Source: Haematococcus lacustris
Lineage: Eukaryota > Chlorophyta > Chlorophyceae > Chlamydomonadales > Haematococcaceae
NCBI GenBank assembly: GCA_030144725.1
Contig: JASKMD010000010.1
Location: 3,041,027-3,105,026, forward strand
DNA: 64,000 nucleotides
Direction of reading: 5' to 3'
Shown here: one piece after another, positions 1 through 50,316 of the stretch
Layout of the letters: each line of letters opens with the position of its first letter
How positions within the stretch are numbered: the stretch's first letter is position 1
Program-made: the position numbers and the translations under genes
The notes under the pieces: generated by a model
Database searches by the model: none
What the model was told of the DNA's origin: nothing
What the model saw: only the letters and a program-made list of their open reading frames with translations

Positions 1-680
1 ACCCCTGATGAGGGACCTGCCCCATTAGGCCCAGGCCCAGCTGTAGCCCTAGGAGCCTGGTCCTGGTCCATGGGGCCTGGGCCTTGGCCTTGGGCAGGGG
101 CAGGGGCAGGGGCTGAAAGCAAATGCAAGCAAGTTGCATCATGCATCATGCATTGACATGAGTTAGATGTATTTAAGAGCAAGAGCAAGAGCAAGAAATG
201 AAAGAAAACTTCCTTAGGCCTCACCCGCATTGGCAGAAGGAGGTTGCTCCATGAGGCGTTGGAGGTCGTGCCACAAGTGCCAAGCCAAGTGTACGGGGCT
301 CAGTCCAGCACACCTCTGCACCGCCTTTGCATGTGCTTTCAAAAGTCTGGTGTGGCGTGTGACTTTGCCTTGCACCTCGCTTGCCGTGCACCTCGCACCT
401 CGCACCTCGCACCATTCAGTGCCCAGCCACTGGTTCCTAGCGCTGGTCTCACAGCGCTGGTCTCCCAGCACAGGGCATTTGCAATGGTTCCCAGCACTAG
501 TTTCCTTGCTCTGGGAATCTCGCGCAGCGCACTCAGTAAATGCACACCGTTGCTGATGATTGCCACCGCTGAGCACTCACTCGCATGTCACACACGCAGT
601 CGGTTGTGTAGGTTGCGTCTCGATCTTACATGTGCCTCCAGCCCGGAACTTGACACAAACTACTCCTCCTCTCTTCACAA
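1..680. other. Upstream non-coding stretch
   Basis: I see no supportable gene here. The first 115 bases are a GC-rich low-complexity stretch built from GGGCAG/GGGCCT-like words. Around 405-500 short imperfect repeats of the type 'cacctcgcac' and 'cagcgctggtctc' occur. The last part may hold the promoter and 5' leader of the gene whose first ATG is at 681. No clear TATA box was found. Confidence 0.5.
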
Positions 681-3600
681 ATGGCAACCGATTGGAACGC
701 CTTCGTGCTCAGTGCTAATGAACAGGCTCCGACTCCGGCACAGTCGACAACGGTTACCAACATGACCGAGCCTACATTCCAATTGCTCGACCGCGGCGCC
801 CACCGCTTTGAGGACGTCAACCCTCGCGTGCCCATAACCCGAGGCGCATTGGACGTGAAATGCAGAGAAGCAAAGGCCTTCGAACAACAGTGGAGGGATG
901 CAGGCAAACCCGGGCGCCCAATCCAAGGTACGAGGCGACCTCGCACATGAGCAGCGCCTCGATATGCCTTGCCTCGACGCACGAACATACTCACACAACA
1001 TTCTAAGTCGCTGCTACGCTTGCGCAGGGTCCGCACTGTACATCATCCAGCAGACAGCGGCCCTGAAGGGCGTGGCCACAATCGCCCCCATCACCCTTCG
1101 CGAAAGCACACAGAAGGTGAACTGTGCGACGGTCACATATGTACATGTGCATTTCCCGCAAATGCCCACAACACCGTGTGGTCCTCAGACCTCTTCACGT
1201 CCACGTCTCGTCGTTTACACGTCTGACGTTGTTCTACTTGTCACGCAGGAGGCCATGGACGCATGGATCGGTCTTGTTGGCAACAACGGGCCCAAGCTAT
1301 ACGACGTAGCCAAGCTCGTGACCTGGTTCCAAGCCCCATTGGAGACCATGCTAAAATTGACTGGATCCAACAGCTCTGCAATGCTCAACACCATCAGAAC
1401 CAGCAGTGCACATGGTATGAGGCATGCAACCATTCACACCAAACATGTGCGCATGCTGTCCATATATCCTCATGTTCCACTTGCACACCCAAGCTGTATT
1501 GCTCCAACTGCAGGCGACATGATGCCTGGCAACAACACTCCTTCTCAGTGCACACCTTCGTCTCCTGCTGTGGTGAGCCATCCTTTCATCTGTGTACATG
1601 TGTCCACCATACACAATCAATTTTATAAGTACAACACGGGTCTCACTTCACAACATCCATACTACTGCATGCCTCCTGCTTGTTCACACACCTTCAGGTC
1701 CCACCACCTCCCAACTCCAACGTACGCCACGTGCAACGTCATGCACATGCTCTGCAAGACACGTATGCTATCAACGACCAGGTATGCTCAAGTACACATC
1801 CACATCTATCATCATGCCCCGTATTCTTACGCCAACAATGATGCATGCCACTATAAACGTGTGCATCATTTTGCAGTCGCCTCACCTTCAGCCTCTTCAT
1901 AGGCAACGCCTGTAGCCTTCTGTGGAGTCACTGCATCAGGTCAGCTACTCTTCCACTTGGACATGCCATCAATAACCCATGCAGCATGTTACACTTGACA
2001 TCTGTGCCTGTTACCTTGTCATGTGCCCCTGACCTGCCCTTCAGGGCCTGGCACCCAGCGAGATCAACCAACGCCATGAGCAACAACATTATCGCGCCAT
2101 GCGCAACATGTATGCCACTGACAAACAGGTATAGCCTCCTCTCATGTTGTTGTGAGCCAACGCTATTGCAATGTACTTCTCCCCTTCATGCTGAATCTTT
2201 CATTCCCATACTGGTCTTTCATGTCTTTGCAGAGTGCACTCGTTTCCAAGCAAAACTCCATTGAAGCCGTGGACAACATTGCGGATGGCTATTCAACTGA
2301 TGAGGTGAGTGCAACACCTTGCTATTTCACTCCTTCACTTCACACCATACCACACCTTGGTGCACTTGATACAACCAAGTAGGTCCAGCTCACATCAGCC
2401 ATGCTTGCTAGCCTCATGGCACTTGAGTACGTTTGACTGTTCCTCTACTAACACATGTGACCTTGCGTGTCGCTTGAATGCCATTTGCGACAACCTTTAC
2501 GACACTGATCTGAGACGATGCCTTTGCATGGCTGCCACCCCAGTAACATATGAGGCTACACTATTGCAGCTGTGCACAACCCATGCTGCCCCTTGGCTTC
2601 TTGGCCCCCTGACATGTGACTTAAGCACCAACCCACGCCATGTCGTCTCACCCATGTTTCCACTTGAACAGGATGAACCCTACGTGGTGTCTGCCGCCCG
2701 TCGCCGCTGCTTCGCCAAGATTTGCATGGACGGTGACGACGACCTTGACATGAAGGTGAACAGTAACACTACCGCATCTGCTAACTGCTGCACAACTCAC
2801 ACGTACCACTGTTGACTCTTGCACCAACAATGATGCATTCCATCATCCTTGTGCACATCATCCTTTGCAGCCTCGTCACCCTGAGCTGCTTTCTCGAGGA
2901 TGCCTGCAATCTACTCCCTCACCGCCATCTGACACCAACAAGCGTAGCGTGCAACAGCGTACCAACGCCATGCTCAACATGCACGCCGCTGACAAGCAGG
3001 TATGGCCTCCTCTTGTATGGCAATCCATAACGCCATGCGACCATGCTCAACATGCCATTGGTCCCTATCCCCACCTCATTCTTTGTTGCCTTTGCAGGGC
3101 ACACGTTCCTCCAAACCACATCTGGGTAAACCCATGGACAGCATCACTCCTAGTGATTCCACTAATGAGGTCAGTGCACAACATTGGTGTCCCAATAGTC
3201 GCTGCACACCATGCTGCACTTGCTCATGACCCTCACACCACATGACTTCACTTTCTCCAAGTGATGTCCCCACCATGTGCTTGTGCGTGTTCTCTTTAAT
3301 TAGGACTCAACACCACTTGCTGCCAACAAACGCCGCGTGCAACTGCGTACCCACGCCATGCACGACATCCACACCATAGACAAGCAGGTATGGTCATGCA
3401 GGCGCTCACACCTACCCAACTGGTGCCAAGCTGTTACAACAACAACAATACTCATCATTCTATGGTTCGTCCTTGCAGCAGCCTCATCTTCAGGCACCCC
3501 AACGGCGTAACCTACGGCCCAATGCGCCATCAGCACGCAAGGTGAGCTACATCCTCTCATCAGCCTGCACCTAATGCTACATACCATCACCTCTACTTCG

Positions 3601-4771
3601 CCACCTCACAAGTCTAAGTTCCACACAATGCTACATATTCATCTTTGCTATTCATGACCCCAAAAATGACGCCATTGTCCTAGACTCTGACACTGAGTCT
3701 GTGAGTACTTCATCACCCAATACTATTGTCACCATACTTCACATCATCACATGACATCTTGTACATCATCTACAGGAACCATTGAGCGCTAGCAACAACC
3801 GCCATTCTGATTCTGAGGATGCATCCATCATCCCACGCCGTCAAAACCCCGTCCCAGTGTCGCCGGTGCGTCATCTCATTCACTGCATGTACCCTTCACA
3901 TGAATTGCACAATGTCCTATTCTCACATGACCCACAATCCAAATACGCTTTTTTACTATTGCACAGGAGGCAAAGGACAATGACAGTGATGACTCAGCCT
4001 CACCTATCAACAAGTCTACCTCACCAAAGGAGGGGCCCCCTTTACCAAGTTCCAATTGCATGTACCTTTGGCCAGCTTGTTCACACACAACATCTGTTGT
4101 ACTACAGGCCTACCTTGTACCTTGAGTACAACAGGTCTGTGGATGCACAGACGAAAAAGTATCAGAAGTTCCACATCAAGGGTCTCATCAGCAAGGACGT
4201 CACCACAGCGCCAGCCAAGATTAAGGCATTTCTGCATAAGCAAATCAAGTCCAAGGGCGCAGCCCATGCCCCTTCCCGCGTGACATGGAGCGGCACCACC
4301 ATGTACAACACCAACAACACAAGTGAGTGCACCATTTCATAACCAAAGCTTTGTAGACACCATCATCAACTGCAGAAAAGGTGCCAGCAACGCATACCAT
4401 TCCCTCATCGTCTTGCTCCATGCTTGTTGCAGATTGACAACAACCTTTTGTGGTGTACAAGTTACGAGGATTCTTGACAATGTTATGTACATTGGAGTCA
4501 CTCAGAATCAAGACCGCCGCATGGGAGAACATGCCCGCAAATTCTGCCCAGCTCAGCCTTCCACTTTCCACACTCTGTTCTCCATGTCCATCTTGCACAC
4601 CACAATGGACAAGACGACTGCTCATATGCTGAAAGGATCATCACGGCATCACATCGTCACTGCAATCACATGCTCAACCATGCCCGAATAACAGGCCCGC
4701 CCAAGGGAGCCATCATGCATCACATCATCACCTGTAGGCGCAATTTCCACAAGCGCAACAAGCGCACTTGA
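681..4771 (+). CDS. Multi-exon gene with repeated micro-exons and a broken GIY-YIG nuclease-like C-terminus
   Basis: Unknown gene. Exon 1 (681-927) starts MATDWNAFVLS. In-phase exons follow at 1028-1116, 1249-1414, 1514-1572 and 1698-1781, each with GT/AG borders. A run of short exons to 3865 is rich in Asn, Arg, His, Asp and Ser and contains repeated modules (separate entry). A basic block near 4150-4322 (KKYQKFHIKG, KIKAFLHKQIKSKG) precedes a GIY-YIG-like domain at about 4455-4771. That domain shows VVYKLRGF in one frame, LDNVMYIGVTQNQDRRMGEH in a second, and AERIITASHRH with LNHARITGPPKG in a third. These match the family's GIY, YIG, Arg, His, Glu and LN elements. The three frames cannot be joined without one-base shifts, so the end is either decayed or mis-sequenced. 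The protein could be a domesticated or mobile-element-derived nuclease. The nuclease call rests on motif order only. Confidence 0.5.
1698..3387 (+). repeat. Array of duplicated phase-0 micro-exons
   Basis: Several exons in this stretch have identical lengths and related products. Exons of exactly 84 bp lie at 1698-1781, 2045-2128, 2672-2755 and 3304-3387. The 3' part of the 129-bp exon 2871-2999 matches the same module. Four of them end in DKQ or NDQ and are followed by a donor starting GTAT. They share a core like N-R-x-VQ-x-R-T-x-AM. Two 72-bp exons at 2233-2304 and 3098-3169 both end STDE or STNE and are followed by GTGAGT or GTCAGT. All begin and end in phase 0, so skipping one would keep the reading frame. 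Between them are introns of roughly 100 bp. A candidate exon at 1877-1939 contains an in-frame TAG and may not be used. Confidence 0.6.
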
Positions 4772-4883
4772 CGTCTTGCATCATTCTGGCCATCAACATC
4801 ATGACACTCGTGACTGTGTGCATCACCATTGCCTCAACCCCTAACCCTTCGTTGTCGTTCAGTTCCACTCCCCACCCCTGTAA

Positions 4884-5246
4884 CCCGAGCCAGGTTTGTC
4901 ACTACACAGTGACAGAGAATGTTAAGGAGTCGTGTCAGGTTTGTCTCTCCACAGTGACAGAATTTGCGTGTAAGCCGAGCCAAATCTGTCACTTCACAGT
5001 CACAGAATATGAGGGTAAGCCGAACCAGTTTTGTCACTTCACAATGACAGAATATGCGTCGGAGCCGAACCAGTTTGTCACTTCACTATGACAGAATATA
5101 CCTAGAAGCCGAGCCAGTTTTGTCACTACACAGTGACAGAATATGCGTGTAAGCCGAGCCACCTTTGTCAATGCACAGTGACAGAATATGCCCATGAGCC
5201 GAGCCAGTTTTGTCACTGCGCAGTGACAGAATATGCCTATGAGCCG
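4884..5246. repeat. 45-bp minisatellite, about 8 copies, each with a hairpin palindrome
   Basis: About eight units of roughly 45 bp, most beginning GCCGAGCCAG, carry the core TGTCACTACACAGTGACA followed by GAATATGC. The core is an inverted repeat, TGTCACT and AGTGACA around a 4-base loop. Units diverge by several substitutions, and the palindrome is intact in some but not all copies. The array lies just downstream of the GIY-YIG-like gene. Confidence 0.85.
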
Positions 5247-6346
5247 TTTTGTTCGGCAGGGGCTGGTGGGGGGGCTGTACGCTAGGACCCCTGACAGCTG
5301 GGGGGGTCAGCTTGAGTGAGGGGGCTGCACGGGGGGGGGGGGGGGCCCTGGAGCATTAGGTGGGGGTGCAAAGGGGGGAGGGGGGCTGGGGAGCATGGAG
5401 CTGAATGGTCGGGTGCTGGGGATGGGGGAGGTGGGCCGCAGCGCCCCGGGGGGGTGTGCTCCGCACTAGGCATCGCATCCTGTGTCGTCCTGTCAGTCCT
5501 ATCACGCGGGGTGAAGGGTGAAGGGGAGGTGGGCCGCTGCATGGGGTAGGTGCGCTTGGTAGCCCTGACCCTTGGGGAGGTGGGGACAACTGCTGCGCTG
5601 CGCTGGCTAACCCTAAGCCTAACCCTCAGCCTAACCTCAACCCGTCAAGGGTGCTGGGGAGGTGGGGGAGTGGAGCCAAGGCCGCTGTCAGCTGCTGCAA
5701 CTGCTGCAACCGCTGCAACTGCTGCAACCGCTGCCCCACACAGGCCGGGCCTGCAGCCTATTGTATTGTAGCCCTGATGCAGCCCTGATGTAGTCCTATT
5801 CTCAGGCAAGGCAAGCCTGAGGAGCCTCACAGCCCAGCCTGCCCTGCAGGTCAGGGGGGTCTGGCGCATGGCCTGGCTAGCTGGCCTGCCTGCTGCCCCT
5901 GACCCCCCTGACCTCTAGACGGGACAGGGGTTTGGGGGCAGCCAAGCGCTGCCGCAGTCACCCCTGCCACCGTTCAGGCCAGTGGCCCCTGCTCTGCCTG
6001 GCCTGCAAGCTGCCTGGACTGGGCTCCCCTGCCTGGCCTGCACCCCGTCCCCTCAATGGCCACTCCCTCCATGGCCTCAGCCCTCAGCCCCTGCTGACAC
6101 CAGGTCACGCGGGCTGATGGTGCTGCAGGCTGCCAGGCTGCCAGGCTGCCACCAGAGCCACTGCCGACCAGCAGGTCCTACGGCCTGGGTCCTGGGCCAC
6201 CTGCCCCCTCACCCTCTGACCTCGGGCTGGACTCCCGCAGTGCAGGCAGTGGCTGTGATGATCACCACCACTACTGTTGTTGCTGCCTTGCTGCTGCTGT
6301 TGCTGCCTCCCTGCTGCCTCCCTGCTGCTGCCCTGCTACTGCCTTG

Positions 6347-21859: not shown

Positions 21860-22470
21860 GCCACCACCCTTCCAATAGTACCATCTGATAATCGGCCAAC
21901 ACCTCACCCACATACAGAGCACATGTCTTTTTGTGTGTGGCACGGATGAGCTTGTCAATGGCACAGGCACATGCACGGGGACGGACACGAGCAGCTGAGT
22001 ATACTTCGATGTATGTAGCTGGCTTTTTTAGTTTAACATAGAAGTAGGTTGCGGCCCTCGGGAATCGAACCCCGGTGGGAACCTTGTCCAGCTACGACTA
22101 ATATCAGACTAATGAGACGACCTAATGAGGCACATTTGACTAATATTAGATCTCATGAGAACTAATGAGAAAAACCGCACCCTACTTAATTCTTAATGCT
22201 TAATTCATTTTGCCAGCGACGGCAGCGGCAGCAACATCGTGACTATGCGCAAGGCGCGGGGTAGTCGGCGGTCGCGGGCCGCCAAAAGGGGTCCATGCAG
22301 CTTCGGTGTTACCACTGCTGCTGCTGCTGCTGTTGGGCCGACTGTCATCGGATGAGATTTATTGCAATCGGCGCACGCAGAGAAATGAGCGAAGAGGTTG
22401 GTCAAAATTTATACACCTCGCCTCTCCTCGCTGCATTGGAATCGCAAAATTCAAAAACGCCACATGCAGC

Positions 22471-22711
22471 CTCGCCTCGCCTCGCCTCGCCTCGCCTCGC
22501 CTCGCCTCGCCTCGCCTCGCCTCGCCTCGCCTCGCCTCGCCTCGCCTCGCCTCGCCTCGCCTCGCCTCGCCTCGCCTCGCCTCGCCTCGCCTCGCCTCGC
22601 CTCGCCTCGCCTCGCCTCGCCTCGCCTCGCCTCGCCTCGCCTCGCCTCGCCTCGCCTCGCCTCGCCTCGCCTCGCCTCGCCTCGCCTCGCCTCGCCTCGC
22701 CTCGCCTCGCC
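22471..22711. repeat. CCTCG pentanucleotide satellite
   Basis: About 48 perfect copies of CCTCG lie between the hAT element and R1 copy 2. They translate into repeating SPRLA on one strand and EARRG on the other. Both are repeat artefacts. Confidence 0.95.
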
Positions 22712-32626: not shown

Positions 32627-35600
32627 CTTTGCCCAGTACAGGCGTAGCTTGTGTTGTGCGCCCAGCCTGCTGATGTCATCCACCTGCAGTGCAGCCCGCC
32701 GCCAGCAGGCCTGTCCACCTGGCCTGGACCCCCCCTCACCCCGCCTCCCCAGAGCAAGGCCACAAAGCACACAGCACAGGCTGACAGCGCTCTGCCGCCC
32801 CCTTGGCCGGCAGTGCAGTTGCAGTGCAAGCTGGTCCCCCGCCTCCCCCTCCCCCCACCCAGCCCCCCTGCCCTGCCCCAGCCCCCACCCCATGCAAACC
32901 AGGTGCACCCAGCCCCCCTCCACACCGCCTGCCCACCCCTTGGTGCCCTCCACCCCCTCCGCCCCTGCTGCAGCCCCGCCCACCTCGTCCTGGCTCAGTC
33001 TGAAGCCAGCGTCCAGCCCCCCCTGCTGCCCCCCAGCCAGCTCAGGTGGGCCTGCGGGCGCCGGGGGGGGTCCCGCCTGTGCTGCTGCCAGGTACTCCCT
33101 CATGCGCTGTGGGCTGCTGGTGGTGGTGATGGGCACGTAGCCCTGCTGGATGCTCCAGCGCAGCAGCACCTGGCCTGCGGGCGATGCTGGCCACAGGCTG
33201 GGCGCTCACCCCCCCCCACACACACACACACCCACCCCCACACCCACCTTCATCATCACCTGGCCTGCGGGCGATGCTGGCCACAGGGTTCAGGCCACAG
33301 GCTGGGGGGTAGGCAGGGGTGGGGCAAGGGGACAGAGGGGGGTAGAATGGGGGAGCGGGGAGGGCAGGGGAGGTGTCAGGGCAGGGTGCCTAGGCAGGCA
33401 GGTTGAGAAATGGGGGCAGGGGCTGTCCCTATCACTCTGTACATGCAGCGCTGTAACTCCACTTCCAGCAGACAAGTGCTCACCCCCCCCCCCCCCCGCA
33501 CACACACAGCCATCACCACCCCCACCATCACCCACGCCCACTCAACACCCTGGACAACCTGCACTATTTAAATTAGGGAACGCAGTTATATGCTTGGTGT
33601 GACATCCCTGCTGAGGAGAGTGACTTGCCTGGTGTGACAGAGTGAGTTTCTGCCAGGCGCTGCAGCAGCTCCCTCAGCGGCAGCGCCCCTGCCGGCACCT
33701 CCTTGATGGTGAGGGGAGCCTGGGGGCTGTAAGCACTCACCACCACGCCTGCAGCCAGAGGCCCGACAAGAGCAGCAGGCAAGGCCTTGAGTGCAGGCAG
33801 TCAGGTTAGTAACAGTGGCTACGTCTGATTGACAGCAGGCCAGGCCAGGGCCAGGGTAGAAGGCAGTGGGTGCCGGATCAGGCTCAACGACCAGTGCCCT
33901 TGGCAGTGCCCAGTCTGAGCTCTCAACCCCGCCGCTGCCCTCCCCCCAGGGCCTCAGCAGCCAGGGTGGGGCGTGGGCCGGGAACTGCTGCAGGGGCTGG
34001 GCAATGGGGCCTGAGCAGGAAGGGGAGGGGGCCAGGGGCTGGGCCCAGCAGACAGCAGCAGGGGGGGCGAAGCGAAGCAGGACGGAGTGGAGGGCCCCCC
34101 CAGCAGCAGCAGGAGGCTACTCAGAGCCGCGGTGCCACTGCCCCTCTACCCCTACCCCTAAGCCTAAGCCTAATTCTAACCCCTGCCACTCCACCCTGCC
34201 ACTGCCCCTCTACTCTCAACGCCCCTCTCTCCCTCCCTCCCCTTGCCCTCTTGCCCTCTTGCCTGCCAACCCTCAGCTTCACTGCAGTGCCGCCTGCACT
34301 CCACCCCCTGCACCCACCCTCACAGCCTCCTGCTATGCCCTGCCCTGCCCCCTGCCTGCAGGCCTGCCCACCTGCCAGCCCCCTGCCCTGCTGGCCTGCC
34401 TGCCTGCCTGCCTGCCTTGTCACCGGCCCTGCCCCCGCACCGTGCTGGCGGCAGACCTCCCGCAGCTCCGGCTGCTGTAGGTGTGGGTGCGCCTCCACCT
34501 GGTTCACGGAGGGCTGCAGGCAGGCGGTGGTGGGCAGGCAGCAGGCAGGCAGGCCAGGAAACTCTGGGAGCCAGCCAGGGCGGCAGCCGGGGAGGAGGAG
34601 CAGCAGCAGAAACGGCAGGAGCAGGAGCAAGCAGCAAGGAAGGTCAGCTTGGCAAGAAGGCGCAGCAGCAGCAGGAGCAGCAGGCAGCAGACAGAGTAGG
34701 GTTAGGGTTAAGGTTAGGGTTAGGGTCGGACCACCAGGCAGCACAGCCACCGCTGCCACTGGTGCAGAACCCAGTGCTCTCTCCTCCCCCCTCCCTCCCC
34801 CTCTTTACCCCACCCCCCGCCCAGCTGACCCCCTCCCTCCCCCAGCACCCTGGCCCCCCCCGTGGCTCTGACCTTGATGCGAGCATAGCTCATGAGCTCC
34901 GTCAGCTGCTGCGCCGTGTAGTTGCTGACGCCAATGCTGCGGGCCAGGCCCCGGTCTACACACGCCTCCATGTCTGCCCACACCTGGGGTGGGGTGGGGT
35001 GGGGTGGGGTGGGGTGGGGTGGGGTGGGGTGGGGTGGGGTGGGGTGGGGTGGGGTGGGGTGGGGTGGGGTGGGGTGGGGTGGGGTGGGGTGGGGTGGGGT
35101 GGGGTGGGGTGGGGTGGGGTGGGGTGGGGTGGGGTGGGGTGGGGTGGGGTGGGGTGGGGTGGGGTGGGGTGGGGCGAGAGGGGGCCTGCTGATGCTGGGG
35201 TGGTCATAGAGGTGTCCAGGTTGGTGGGGTGGCCCCCTCACTATACCCTGCTGCAGGTGACCAGCTGCTCTCTTGCGCCTGCTGATGCCCCTGGCCTGCT
35301 GTCATGTCTGCTGCCCCCCACCTTGCGGTAGTCCAGGTCAGGCGTGAAGGGGGAGTGCACCAGCAGCAGGTCCACCTGATCCAGGCCAAGGCGGCTGAGG
35401 CATGCGGGCACCGCCTGCGGGGTGTGGCGGCAGGCTGGGCGAGCACTTGTCCAGCAAGGTGGTGAGGGGAAGGTGCGGATCCACGGGCCAGCCACTCAGG
35501 GATCCAGTGAAGTCCCCCACACCCCACACCCCTGCTTGCCGCCTCCCACCTTGGGCACATCTGCCAGGCCTTTGAACAGCTTGGTGGTGATGAACAGCTG

Positions 35601-46201: not shown

Positions 46202-47415
46202 TGCAAGTGTGCAAGGGGGTGAGGAACCCCCAAGGCTAGTCCGCCACAGCTAGACCACTCGTCCAACTGGGACTTGTTGCAAGGTTCACACAGGTCACTG
46301 ATGTGACCTAAGGAGCAGGCTCTGGCTGGATCTGCCAGTTCAGCCTGACCCAGCCCAGGGCTTTCGGGCTGTCCATAGCTTTGTGCAACATAGTGCAAAC
46401 ATGCATGCTCAGTTGTCACGGGTATGCCTCCAGGGTGTGCAGCTTTCTGTCAGGCTCTATGGTGCTGCACACTACTGCCTTCAATAGCCTGCGGGTTGGG
46501 GAGCATAGTGCCAAGCATCACTGCCTCCCTGCACCCACCAATGGACTGCTCATGTGGGTGACCCAGGTACTGTAGAGGCAGGCAGTGGCTGTGTAGTGTG
46601 TTGGAGTTTTTGCTTGCTGTTGGTTTTGTTGTTTGCTGTTGTTTTTGTTTGCTGACAAGGAGCTGATGGGTGGGTTACCCTCACACACGACATGACCCTC
46701 AGCACTTGATGATGCTGAACATCACATTATTGAGTGCGTGATGCTCCTAATGTTCAACAAGGCCTTGTATTGACCAACTCATAGGCTTGTTTCCACATGT
46801 ACAAATTAGCACGAGGTTTAGTGTAAGGTGGTGAGGAACTCACCAGGACGGGCTGGCACGGACAGAACTGGGACATCAATTGCACTGCTGCATTCTTATC
46901 GTTGTTGAATGGTTTTGCCGGTGAGCCAAACTGACAGCGGCACACTATGTGCAATCAGCAGCTCTAACAGCCATTTGTACATTTCACACACCCATGGCTG
47001 TGCCTAACCTTCTAGAAACTAACCAGGACTACCCATGACACTCACACACACAACATGATCATGGGCACCTGTCGATGCTAGACATTCTATCTTCGAGTGC
47101 GCTGCCATGAGGCCCATCAGGAAACAGCCGGAGGTTGTGCTGACTCTTTTGAACACCCCTTCTTTTTCAGCCCATGTGCACCTTTTTGTTGGTCCAATGG
47201 TGACATCCAAGGGCGGTTAAGCAGCCAGACTGCTGATGCCTGTGTTAGTCATACGGGGAGAAACAATTTTAGACCACGTGTCACATCGACACAGTTTTTC
47301 AATGTGGTGAAGAAGTAAAGCTCTTGTCATTACGCCTTATCAAGACTTCATGCGCGACTCTCAGATCATCAGGTGAAAACAAGGCATTGCCCTAAGCAGG
47401 ACGTCCGGCCGCCCG
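46202..47415. other. Intergenic stretch without a supportable gene
   Basis: Apart from R2 copy 2, I see no gene or known element between the unknown gene and the CCCCG satellite. Confidence 0.5.
46638..46802. repeat. Dispersed repeat R2, copy 2
   Basis: This is the partner of 41552-41718, both starting GTTGTTTTTGTTTGCTGACA and ending TTGTTTCCACATGTAC. The two copies bracket about 4.9 kb containing the main exons of the unknown gene, like the ends of a composite or LTR-type element. No terminal TG...CA or target duplication was established. Confidence 0.92.
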
Positions 47416-49400
47416 CCCCGCCCCGCCCCGCCCCGCCCCGCCCCGCCCCGCCCCGCCCCGCCCCGCCCCGCCCCGCCCCGCCCCGCCCCGCCCCGCCCCG
47501 CCCCGCCCCGCCCCGCCCCGCCCCGCCCCGCCCCGCCCCGCCCCGCCCCGCCCCGCCCCGCCCCGCCCCGCCCCGCCCCGCCCCGCCCCGCCCCGCCCCG
47601 CCCCGCCCCGCCCCGCCCCGCCCCGCCCCGCCCCGCCCCGCCCCGCCCCGCCCCGCCCCGCCCCGCCCCGCCCCGCCCCGCCCCGCCCCGCCCCGCCCCG
47701 CCCCGCCCCGCCCCGCCCCGCCCCGCCCCGCCCCGCCCCGCCCCGCCCCGCCCCGCCCCGCCCCGCCCCGCCCCGCCCCGCCCCGCCCCGCCCCGCCCCG
47801 CCCCGCCCCGCCCCGCCCCGCCCCGCCCCGCCCCGCCCCGCCCCGCCCCGCCCCGCCCCGCCCCGCCCCGCCCCGCCCCGCCCCGCCCCGCCCCGCCCCG
47901 CCCCGCCCCGCCCCGCCCCGCCCCGCCCCGCCCCGCCCCGCCCCGCCCCGCCCCGCCCCGCCCCGCCCCGCCCCGCCCCGCCCCGCCCCGCCCCGCCCCG
48001 CCCCGCCCCGCCCCGCCCCGCCCCGCCCCGCCCCGCCCCGCCCCGCCCCGCCCCGCCCCGCCCCGCCCCGCCCCGCCCCGCCCCGCCCCGCCCCGCCCCG
48101 CCCCGCCCCGCCCCGCCCCGCCCCGCCCCGCCCCGCCCCGCCCCGCCCCGCCCCGCCCCGCCCCGCCCCGCCCCGCCCCGCCCCGCCCCGCCCCGCCCCG
48201 CCCCGCCCCGCCCCGCCCCGCCCCGCCCCGCCCCGCCCCGCCCCGCCCCGCCCCGCCCCGCCCCGCCCCGCCCCGCCCCGCCCCGCCCCGCCCCGCCCCG
48301 CCCCGCCCCGCCCCGCCCCGCCCCGCCCCGCCCCGCCCCGCCCCGCCCCGCCCCGCCCCGCCCCGCCCCGCCCCGCCCCGCCCCGCCCCGCCCCGCCCCG
48401 CCCCGCCCCGCCCCGCCCCGCCCCGCCCCGCCCCGCCCCGCCCCGCCCCGCCCCGCCCCGCCCCGCCCCGCCCCGCCCCGCCCCGCCCCGCCCCGCCCCG
48501 CCCCGCCCCGCCCCGCCCCGCCCCGCCCCGCCCCGCCCCGCCCCGCCCCGCCCCGCCCCGCCCCGCCCCGCCCCGCCCCGCCCCGCCCCGCCCCGCCCCG
48601 CCCCGCCCCGCCCCGCCCCGCCCCGCCCCGCCCCGCCCCGCCCCGCCCCGCCCCGCCCCGCCCCGCCCCGCCCCGCCCCGCCCCGCCCCGCCCCGCCCCG
48701 CCCCGCCCCGCCCCGCCCCGCCCCGCCCCGCCCCGCCCCGCCCCGCCCCGCCCCGCCCCGCCCCGCCCCGCCCCGCCCCGCCCCGCCCCGCCCCGCCCCG
48801 CCCCGCCCCGCCCCGCCCCGCCCCGCCCCGCCCCGCCCCGCCCCGCCCCGCCCCGCCCCGCCCCGCCCCGCCCCGCCCCGCCCCGCCCCGCCCCGCCCCG
48901 CCCCGCCCCGCCCCGCCCCGCCCCGCCCCGCCCCGCCCCGCCCCGCCCCGCCCCGCCCCGCCCCGCCCCGCCCCGCCCCGCCCCGCCCCGCCCCGCCCCG
49001 CCCCGCCCCGCCCCGCCCCGCCCCGCCCCGCCCCGCCCCGCCCCGCCCCGCCCCGCCCCGCCCCGCCCCGCCCCGCCCCGCCCCGCCCCGCCCCGCCCCG
49101 CCCCGCCCCGCCCCGCCCCGCCCCGCCCCGCCCCGCCCCGCCCCGCCCCGCCCCGCCCCGCCCCGCCCCGCCCCGCCCCGCCCCGCCCCGCCCCGCCCCG
49201 CCCCGCCCCGCCCCGCCCCGCCCCGCCCCGCCCCGCCCCGCCCCGCCCCGCCCCGCCCCGCCCCGCCCCGCCCCGCCCCGCCCCGCCCCGCCCCGCCCCG
49301 CCCCGCCCCGCCCCGCCCCGCCCCGCCCCGCCCCGCCCCGCCCCGCCCCGCCCCGCCCCGCCCCGCCCCGCCCCGCCCCGCCCCGCCCCGCCCCGCCCCG
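47416..49400. repeat. Perfect CCCCG satellite, 397 copies (1,985 bp)
   Basis: Every unit is CCCCG with no visible substitution or indel. The other strand is (CGGGG)n, with G runs separated by single C, a strong G-quadruplex former; the C strand could form i-motifs. It also has one CpG per 5 bp. Long open frames exist on both strands only because 5 is not a multiple of 3 and no unit contains a stop. They are not genes. Confidence 0.98.
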
Positions 49401-50316
49401 CCCTCTGAGGTGAGGACAAAGGATGGTGGGTTGTAATGGATGGCTGCTACACCTGACCCTCCATCTGCTAGCTCTACATCTCCCTACTCTATTTGTGAGT
49501 GCATCCAGTACCCATGTCCCATGTTTGCTTCCGTTGACAAATCGTCACACCGTTGCCGCAGGTCTTGTGCGCCAACACCTGAGACTATCAACGCCCTCCC
49601 TCCCTTCTTCCCCACTTCTCTCGCCCCCCCCATGGACCTCCCCTTCCCTTCCCTCCCCTTCTTCCTCTACCTCCCCTCCCCCACTTCTCTACCATCCAGT
49701 CCCCCTCTGGGTCCTATTACCCCCTCCATTACCAAGCAACAGCAGCAGCCTTCCTCCCCCTCCGCCTCCTCACCCTCATCATCTACACACATATACACCA
49801 CACTACAGCAAAAGGTGAGTGCAGGTATGTGGCACCCTGTACCTACCTTCACCGCTAGCATGCCCCTTGTCCCGCTGCAGGATTGATCGTCACACCCTTC
49901 CCCATCCCATTTTCCTCCCCTTTCCCACGCCCACCACCAACGCCCAGCCTTGTCGTCCCTACACTTCCACCTCTACCCACCCCCCACTTCCCCCCTCCCC
50001 GTCACCTCTCCCCTGACATCCCAGCAGCCAGGAGAAAGCCCCACCCACCCACCCTCTTCCCACCACCACCACCACCCCCTCCCTTCCCCCCTCCCACCAT
50101 CCCATACTTGTCAAGCCTCCCCTTCCCCTCTTCCACCCTTCGATTGACGTGGCATCGCAGCCCCCACCTCACCCCACCTTCCCTTCCCTACACCCTATAC
50201 TCCCCACCGCAGTCCCACCCCACTGGTGCATGGGATATGTTGCCTGGTGTGAGCAGGTAGGAGGTGATAGCTAACACAGTGCCCAGCCTGGTCACCCTTC
50301 ATCACGTGCACGCCCC
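49401..50316. other. C-rich stretch upstream of the LINE
   Basis: The sequence is strongly C/T-rich with many CCTCCCC and CACC words. It may be decayed upstream sequence of the LINE, but no reverse transcriptase motif (such as YADD) was seen. Confidence 0.4.

Follow-up and report, generated by a model that had tools for sequence, protein, structure and literature searches.

Tandem duplication of exon blocks and frame-neutral modules in a predicted gene family of Haematococcus lacustris

A predicted gene of Haematococcus lacustris contains blocks of short exons that have very probably been duplicated in tandem together with their introns, frame-neutral modules having been added, fused and lost across the copies of the gene; these modules likely form a linker. 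The window, which is the whole stretch of DNA that was analysed (64,000 nucleotides), corresponds to C2:3041027-3105026 within the 308-Mb genome of this alga, and positions given without a contig or locus name refer to it. The gene model, a predicted multi-exon gene on the + strand, extends from an ATG at 681 to a stop codon ending at 4771. Exon use was inferred from borders, conservation and deposited models. The conserved N-terminal part starts with the predicted exon E1 (681-927), which is open in 4/4 copies and has eight deposited relatives in H. lacustris. It is followed by the predicted exons E2 (1028-1116), E3 (1249-1414) and E4 (1514-1572), which were compared across copies, E4 being the last one before the array. 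All exons of the gene, intron w, the three duplicated blocks and the 45-bp satellite at 4881-5246, described below, are listed on the + strand.

A DNA search of the genome returned the window copy, the L007 copy on the same contig (98.7-99.4% identity), and the L009 and L008 copies (88% and 82%), which form a head-to-tail cluster on contig C1. Exon 1 is matched at 16 or more loci, the distant ones being located on contigs C22, C476 and C90 and elsewhere on contig C2.

The array is composed of nine predicted exons that add up to 735 nt, in the order A1 (84 nt, 1698-1781), B1 (63 nt, 1877-1939), A2 (84 nt, 2045-2128), C1 (72 nt, 2233-2304), E10 (84 nt, 2672-2755), B2-A3 (129 nt, 2871-2999), C2 (72 nt, 3098-3169), A4 (84 nt, 3304-3387) and B4 (63 nt, 3479-3541). 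Since every length is a multiple of three and 9/9 exons are at phase 0-0, modules can be added or lost without a frameshift. The frame neutrality claimed in an earlier, sequence-only reading of this DNA thus holds as a matter of arithmetic, and whole-module differences do exist between paralogues. The four exons of 84 bp, two of 72 bp and one of 129 bp that it had listed, all at phase 0 at both ends, were found at their positions, open and bordered by AG and GT in the predicted model. Its account of the array was nevertheless incomplete: the two 63-nt exons (1877-1939 and 3479-3541) and a dead 45-nt exon (3656-3700) had been missed. These exons are short, as the term "micro-exon" implied, but the word is strong for lengths of 63-129 nt. 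The match that had been proposed between donor and exon classes is borne out: A1, A2 and A4 are followed by GTAT, C1 by GTGAGT and exon C2 by GTCAGT. Over four gene copies GTAT is found after 14/15 A-type exons and after 0/19 other array exons, a count in which L007 nearly repeats the window copy. The introns of the array measure 91-134 nt, with one of 367 nt (intron w, 2305-2671). The content of T is 17.6% in E1-E4 and the array exons versus 28.3% in introns. In frame 0 the array contains one stop, versus a mean of 8.0 in shuffles (P=0.003); frame 1 also contains just two, so that open frames alone are weak evidence for the array exons.

Downstream of the array lies the dead 45-nt exon E15 (3656-3700), whose acceptor is present in L009 and C476 and lost in the window copy and L007, a loss that leaves the frame of the rest untouched. 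A third C-type exon was considered at 3629-3700, the place of this dead exon, and discarded, its identity (31-32%) not being above background. The conserved tail includes E16 (3776-3865; 90 nt, phase 0-0, and 93 nt in L009) and E18 (4108-4322), for which omega ranges from 0.12 to 0.43 in four comparisons. Exon E17 (3967-4058) is predicted between them; its GTAAGT donor, found in L007 and L009, is lost in the window copy. The last exon (4433-4771) encodes the GIY-YIG part. Its frame is broken in the window copy, whereas L009, C90 and two copies on C346 have it open.

The module classes are supported by two comparisons. The A-type modules, aligned in register, show 56-75% DNA identity in their six pairs, the mean elsewhere in the region being 26-27%; the corresponding values are 57% versus 25% for C1/C2 and 54% versus 26% for B1/B4. 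In a local-score test against dinucleotide shuffles, five of the six A pairs (z from 3.8 to 13.7) and C1/C2 (6.8) pass z=3.5, and A1/A3 and B1/B4 do not. Homology within a class is therefore indicated by both tests for A and C and by in-register identity only for B1/B4; B4 also matches a B-type exon of C476 (52% identity). The sequence-only reading had treated the 84-nt exons as related, which stands for A1, A2 and A4. It fails for E10, which has no detectable kinship to the other three and represents a second 84-nt class: its ungapped identity to them is 29-40%, and the highest value (40%, with A4) is reached by 0.5% of positions. The possibility of E10 being a diverged A module was considered and set aside (profile permutation P=0.034, hhalign probability 0.4%), and E10 was kept as a separate class. 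This exon matches six modules of the paralogue C90 (z=8.2), in which its class has multiplied, and C1 and C2 match 72-nt exons of C90 and C476 (P of 0.002 or less for each of three).

Tandem duplication of multi-exon blocks together with their introns is strongly supported. The first block (1825-2355) contains part of intron x, B1, A2, intron z, C1 and the start of intron w, and self-alignment pairs it with a second block (2817-3219): 189/285 positions are identical between 2060-2355 and 2931-3219, and 68/97 between 1825-1921 and 2817-2915. A third block (3323-3550), consisting of A4, an intron and B4, shares 139/227 positions with 1717-1948. In each of these three alignments 0/200 shuffles were as good, and all three cross exon-intron borders; a blastn self-match over 70 bp likewise spans the border between an intron and an exon (E=5e-5). 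Alignment does not extend to all intron pairs, three of which pass z=3.5 in the local-score test. The starts of introns w and u (those after C1 and exon C2), taken alone, give a match that is reached by 12/200 shuffles; with its first ~50 nt, intron w closes the aligned block 2060-2355. The earlier proposal of a duplication of exon-plus-intron units, for which introns that do not align would have been damaging, is thereby strongly supported, as introns were duplicated with exons in these three blocks, and C90 multiplied another exon with its flanking introns. The second copy of the block lacks the intron between B and A, so that a 63-nt-class and an 84-nt-class exon make up the single 129-nt exon B2-A3. 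That this exon ends in the 84-nt module had been correctly seen, and it is a fusion of modules of the 63-bp and 84-bp classes, whose counterparts in C476 are separate exons of 63 and 84 nt.

The copies of the gene show how such modules vary. L007 and L009 have the same array exon lengths as the window copy (9/9), and in L009 all nine exons are open over about 12% divergence. L008 lacks A2 and C1 (window positions 2026-2580 are missing) and keeps E10, B2-A3, C2, A4 and B4 at unchanged lengths; its A1 is damaged rather than cleanly removed, which leaves the whole out of frame, and its B4 has an acceptor other than AG. B1 is open in L007, L009 and L008, its in-frame TAG being found in the window copy alone (1/4 copies). 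In the more distant paralogues the predicted arrays, also at phase 0, run 72-84-63-84-63-45 nt in C476 and 72-78-84-72-84-84-84-84-84 nt in C90; the second 72-nt exon of C90 has a stop in that copy, and the deposited model P0008 ends the last module of C90 otherwise. C90 has seven units of the E10 class, of which 12/21 pairs beat at least 99/100 shuffles; 11 of these 12 alignments are in register and extend into the introns (for instance, 160/229 and 141/209 identical positions in alignments across introns). Thus, two subfamilies multiplied different modules. The sizes 84, 72 and 63 recur in distant paralogues, the same size classes being present in at least three divergent subfamilies.

According to the explanation that we prefer, the array has grown by tandem duplication of blocks of predicted exons along with their introns. 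Two exons, one of the 63-nt class and one of the 84-nt class, have fused into one of 129 nt, and from one gene copy to another whole modules have been gained, lost or decayed while the remainder stays in frame. The modules likely act as a flexible linker of variable length between the conserved N-terminal part and the conserved tail with the GIY-YIG domain. Comparison of the window copy with L009 gives omega values of 0.15 for the N-terminus (P=2e-7), 0.56 for the array (P=0.024) and 0.12 for E18 (P=1e-4), from which the ends of the protein appear to be tightly held and the array loosely. The weaker selection on the array fits a linker, and it would suit one in which length and charge count for more than the exact sequence. 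Identity to L009 is nearly the same in exons (91.1%) and introns (89.0%), which also indicates that constraint on the array is weak. Several results count against the preferred explanation: the array omega of 0.98 against the broken copy L008, the damaged A1 and the non-AG acceptor of that copy, the small number of array changes relative to L007 (omega 1.5), the stop in one C90 module, the different end of the last C90 module in P0008, the sub-threshold GIY-YIG match of the window copy and the possible allelic status of some copies. The structure model of P0001, which was aligned with five of seven deposited relatives, is too poor for judging the linker (mean pLDDT 41, pTM 0.18).

These values also bear on the possibility that the array is a neutral by-product only, i.e. 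that symmetric exons are tolerated, that the repeats are functionless and decaying and that the window copy is a pseudogene, which we regard as doubtful although it is the strongest of the alternatives. The window copy indeed accumulates damage (the TAG in B1, the dead E15 acceptor, the lost E17 donor and the broken GIY-YIG frame, the latter broken also in L007), and the array omega of 0.56 against L009 and 0.98 against L008 goes in the same direction. The comparison with L007 involves just six array changes (one silent, five not). The window copy looks to be decaying and likely makes no full-length protein, and more intact copies exist. For instance, L009 keeps 9/9 array exons open at the same lengths over its divergence, the same sizes persist in the arrays of C90 and C476, and the array omega against L009 is below 1, all of which speaks against neutrality alone.

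A further alternative, compatible with tandem block duplication and a linker, is that of a combinatorial splicing cassette, in which regulated inclusion and skipping of exons would provide many variants from one gene; we consider it unlikely. All nine array exons are frame-neutral, and deposited gene models omit single modules. P0001 carries six array modules (A1, A2, C1, E10, B2-A3 and C2) with lengths unchanged, but has no 63-nt module B1 between its first two 84-nt modules, although B1 is open in the related copy L009. Neither window positions 1-6000 nor L009 yielded a match to the C-terminal 14 residues of P0001. P0002 maps with 324/324 residues onto C476:17928754(-), with array exons of 72, 84, 63, 84 and 45 nt bordered by AG and GT. 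The model leaves out one 63-nt exon, which reads open in the gene of P0002 itself and is flanked by AG and GT in a sister copy. We take the genome assembly of P0002 to be the one described in PMC10400597, the genes of which are stated to derive from RNA-seq and from homology to eight further species, combined with Maker. Since relatives of the gene were found in H. lacustris only, P0002 probably rests on RNA-seq, that is, on transcripts. Strain Liv1 was annotated with Trinity and Iso-Seq (PMC12613990), and the V8C86 models may be those of this strain. As part of the preferred explanation, single modules, above all those of the 63-nt type, are likely skipped in some transcripts. However, gene models can omit exons by error, intron retention is given as the main alternative splicing in Haematococcus pluvialis in a review table (PMC12702839), and the module sets of paralogues differ by DNA changes, which produce variety without regulated splicing. 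The difference in modules between P0003 and P0004, which come from contigs of equal length, was not counted as evidence of skipping, as P0004 reads exon 4 in another frame. Nor does the array behave as a mutually exclusive exon cluster of the Dscam type, since the gene model P0001 carries A1, A2 and A3 together. In intron w, a stretch at 2498-2596 resembles the coding end of the deposited P0003 and P0004 (44% over 34 residues), and its counterpart in C90 has stops.

The C-terminal exon scores above the Pfam PF01541 cut-off (22.6 bits) in L009 (29.1) and C90 (30.3), and below it in the window copy (20.9 and 21.2). In L009 and C90 it keeps YIG, RRM.EH and a downstream LERR, residues that have roles in the GIY-YIG domain, and the family is predicted to comprise GIY-YIG nucleases. 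The 578-residue conceptual protein that precedes the GIY-YIG part in the predicted-exon model has no Pfam match. An in-frame TGA (4435-4437) is located between E18 and the GIY-YIG frame; together with TGACAACAACC it is unchanged in 6/6 copies where it was found (the window copy, L007, L009, L060 on contig C90 and two of L059 on contig C346). A scan of two C476 stretches, in which the GIY-YIG part is degenerate, did not return the TGACAACAACC motif. If E18 is spliced to the nearest acceptor in the predicted model, the GIY-YIG frame is entered with the TGA alone in between. Purifying selection acts on the frame that follows (omega 0.19 between L009 and C90, P=1e-10), which makes this TGA a candidate site of stop-codon readthrough. 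No SECIS was found in four loci, and 29 RNA-family matches at E up to 1 included none at gathering score. The conserved TGA makes the joining of the GIY-YIG domain to the array a prediction, which counts against the preferred explanation. In a more ambitious interpretation, this would be a lineage-specific nuclease family with a splice-programmable array, class-specific splice signatures and a GIY-YIG domain made only by UGA readthrough; splicing and readthrough together would then set the reach and activity of the enzyme. We consider this interpretation improbable.

The GIY-YIG domain, the presence of several copies and the 45-bp satellite found beside copies on contigs C1 and C2 could also suggest that the gene belongs to a mobile element, such as a GIY-YIG-bearing transposon, the array being variation among its copies. 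This is very unlikely, because the 578 residues before the GIY-YIG part match no Pfam family, none of the 17 inverted pairs in window positions 1-6000, which are short or local, brackets the gene, the copies on contig C1 form a head-to-tail cluster, and the upstream flank is common to the window copy and L007 over about 6 kb. Penelope-like retroelements combine a reverse transcriptase with GIY-YIG, and the conceptual protein, as built from predicted exons, does not fit this combination. A search of a viral collection with the C-terminal and the N-terminal piece returned no relative, and NCBIfam gave no match at cut-off; two weak, unrelated matches (E about 0.05) were obtained among solved structures. 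None of seven other ORFs of the window has a Pfam match at E 0.01, and the window holds no RNA family at gathering score and no tRNA. Finally, that the array exons match by chance through composition only has practically no likelihood: they are short and C-rich and A1/A3 and B1/B4 fail the local-score test, but dinucleotide-shuffle controls, position controls and conservation in paralogues oppose it.

Tandem exon duplication copies an exon with intron sequence, and only symmetric exons keep the frame. The predicted array agrees with such duplication in class homology, common phase and introns duplicated with exons, and goes beyond it in that multi-exon blocks were copied, the amplified class differs between paralogues and two exons were merged into one. 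Some modules of the titin PEVK region are about 28 residues long. In vertebrate TTN, this region has been described as a set of short, highly repetitive, alternatively spliced exons, with length and exon structure varying between species (PMC6469411). The Haematococcus array similarly is a run of short repetitive exons that can be omitted; however, titin is a spring of animal muscle with about 100 PEVK exons, whereas this is a nine-exon array with several module classes beside a nuclease domain. The micro-exon genes (MEGs) of schistosomes also contain runs of small symmetrical exons, mostly multiples of three, that are said to give splice variants; these exons are of 6-81 bp, mostly 15 bp, the introns reach about 5 kb and the products are secreted (PMC4350168, PMC10526429). 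Symmetric exons in runs are shared with the array, but the Haematococcus exons are of 63-129 nt and the array introns of 91-367 nt. The window gene is a member of neither titin PEVK nor the schistosome MEGs. With the GIY-YIG family (PF01541) it shares the C-terminal exon, and it differs in the N-terminal part without a Pfam match and in the module array in between. The family thus combines such an N-terminal part with a GIY-YIG domain that follows a conserved in-frame stop, and it offers a natural record, in a single-celled alga, of frame-neutral exons letting a gene family grow, fuse and shed modules.

A protein search, which detects only relatives sharing short exact words, returned eight relatives at E up to 1, all of them from H. 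lacustris (8/8). The portions available of the literature on Haematococcus with exon duplication or GIY-YIG hold nothing on this nuclease family, the GIY-YIG reports concerning organelle genomes. Family members occur in mirrored inverted pairs on contigs C90, C476, C22, C89 and C2; these may be true palindromes, or else two haplotypes that the assembly sets next to each other. Alleles rather than paralogues may account for some of the copies, since H. lacustris has been reported as diploid with a heterozygosity of 1.5%, with a 151-Mb assembly (PMC7617258). Another assembly has 291.5 Mb (PMC12613990), and a further one, called haplotypic, is reported at 316 Mb.

Other features accompany the family members. 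L007 (C2:3403500-3411500) carries a 280-bp insert at the place of window position 2033 and a 1.4-kb insert within exon E17. Inside the C90 gene, an ORF (L060:2194-2751, - strand) has an HTH_psq match of 17.5 bits, below the cut-off of 20.4, and is likely a nested transposon. Upstream of the gene lies a coiled-coil-like ORF (L014 4245-4895, - strand) that resembles by eye the second half of the deposited model P0006; this model fuses that ORF to exon E1 and is likely to have combined two neighbouring genes. The gene on contig C2 is flanked on both sides by a 45-bp satellite with a hairpin core, present as a tandem repeat of 8.2 copies adjoining the gene (4881-5246) and as 28.3 copies at L014 5431-6694, and the same satellite is found downstream of the gene cluster on contig C1 (C1:2294016-2294270). 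The window also contains perfect 5-bp satellites, namely 398 copies of CCCGC (47412-49403), 48.6 of GCCTC (22469-22711) and 38 of TGGGG (34985-35174).
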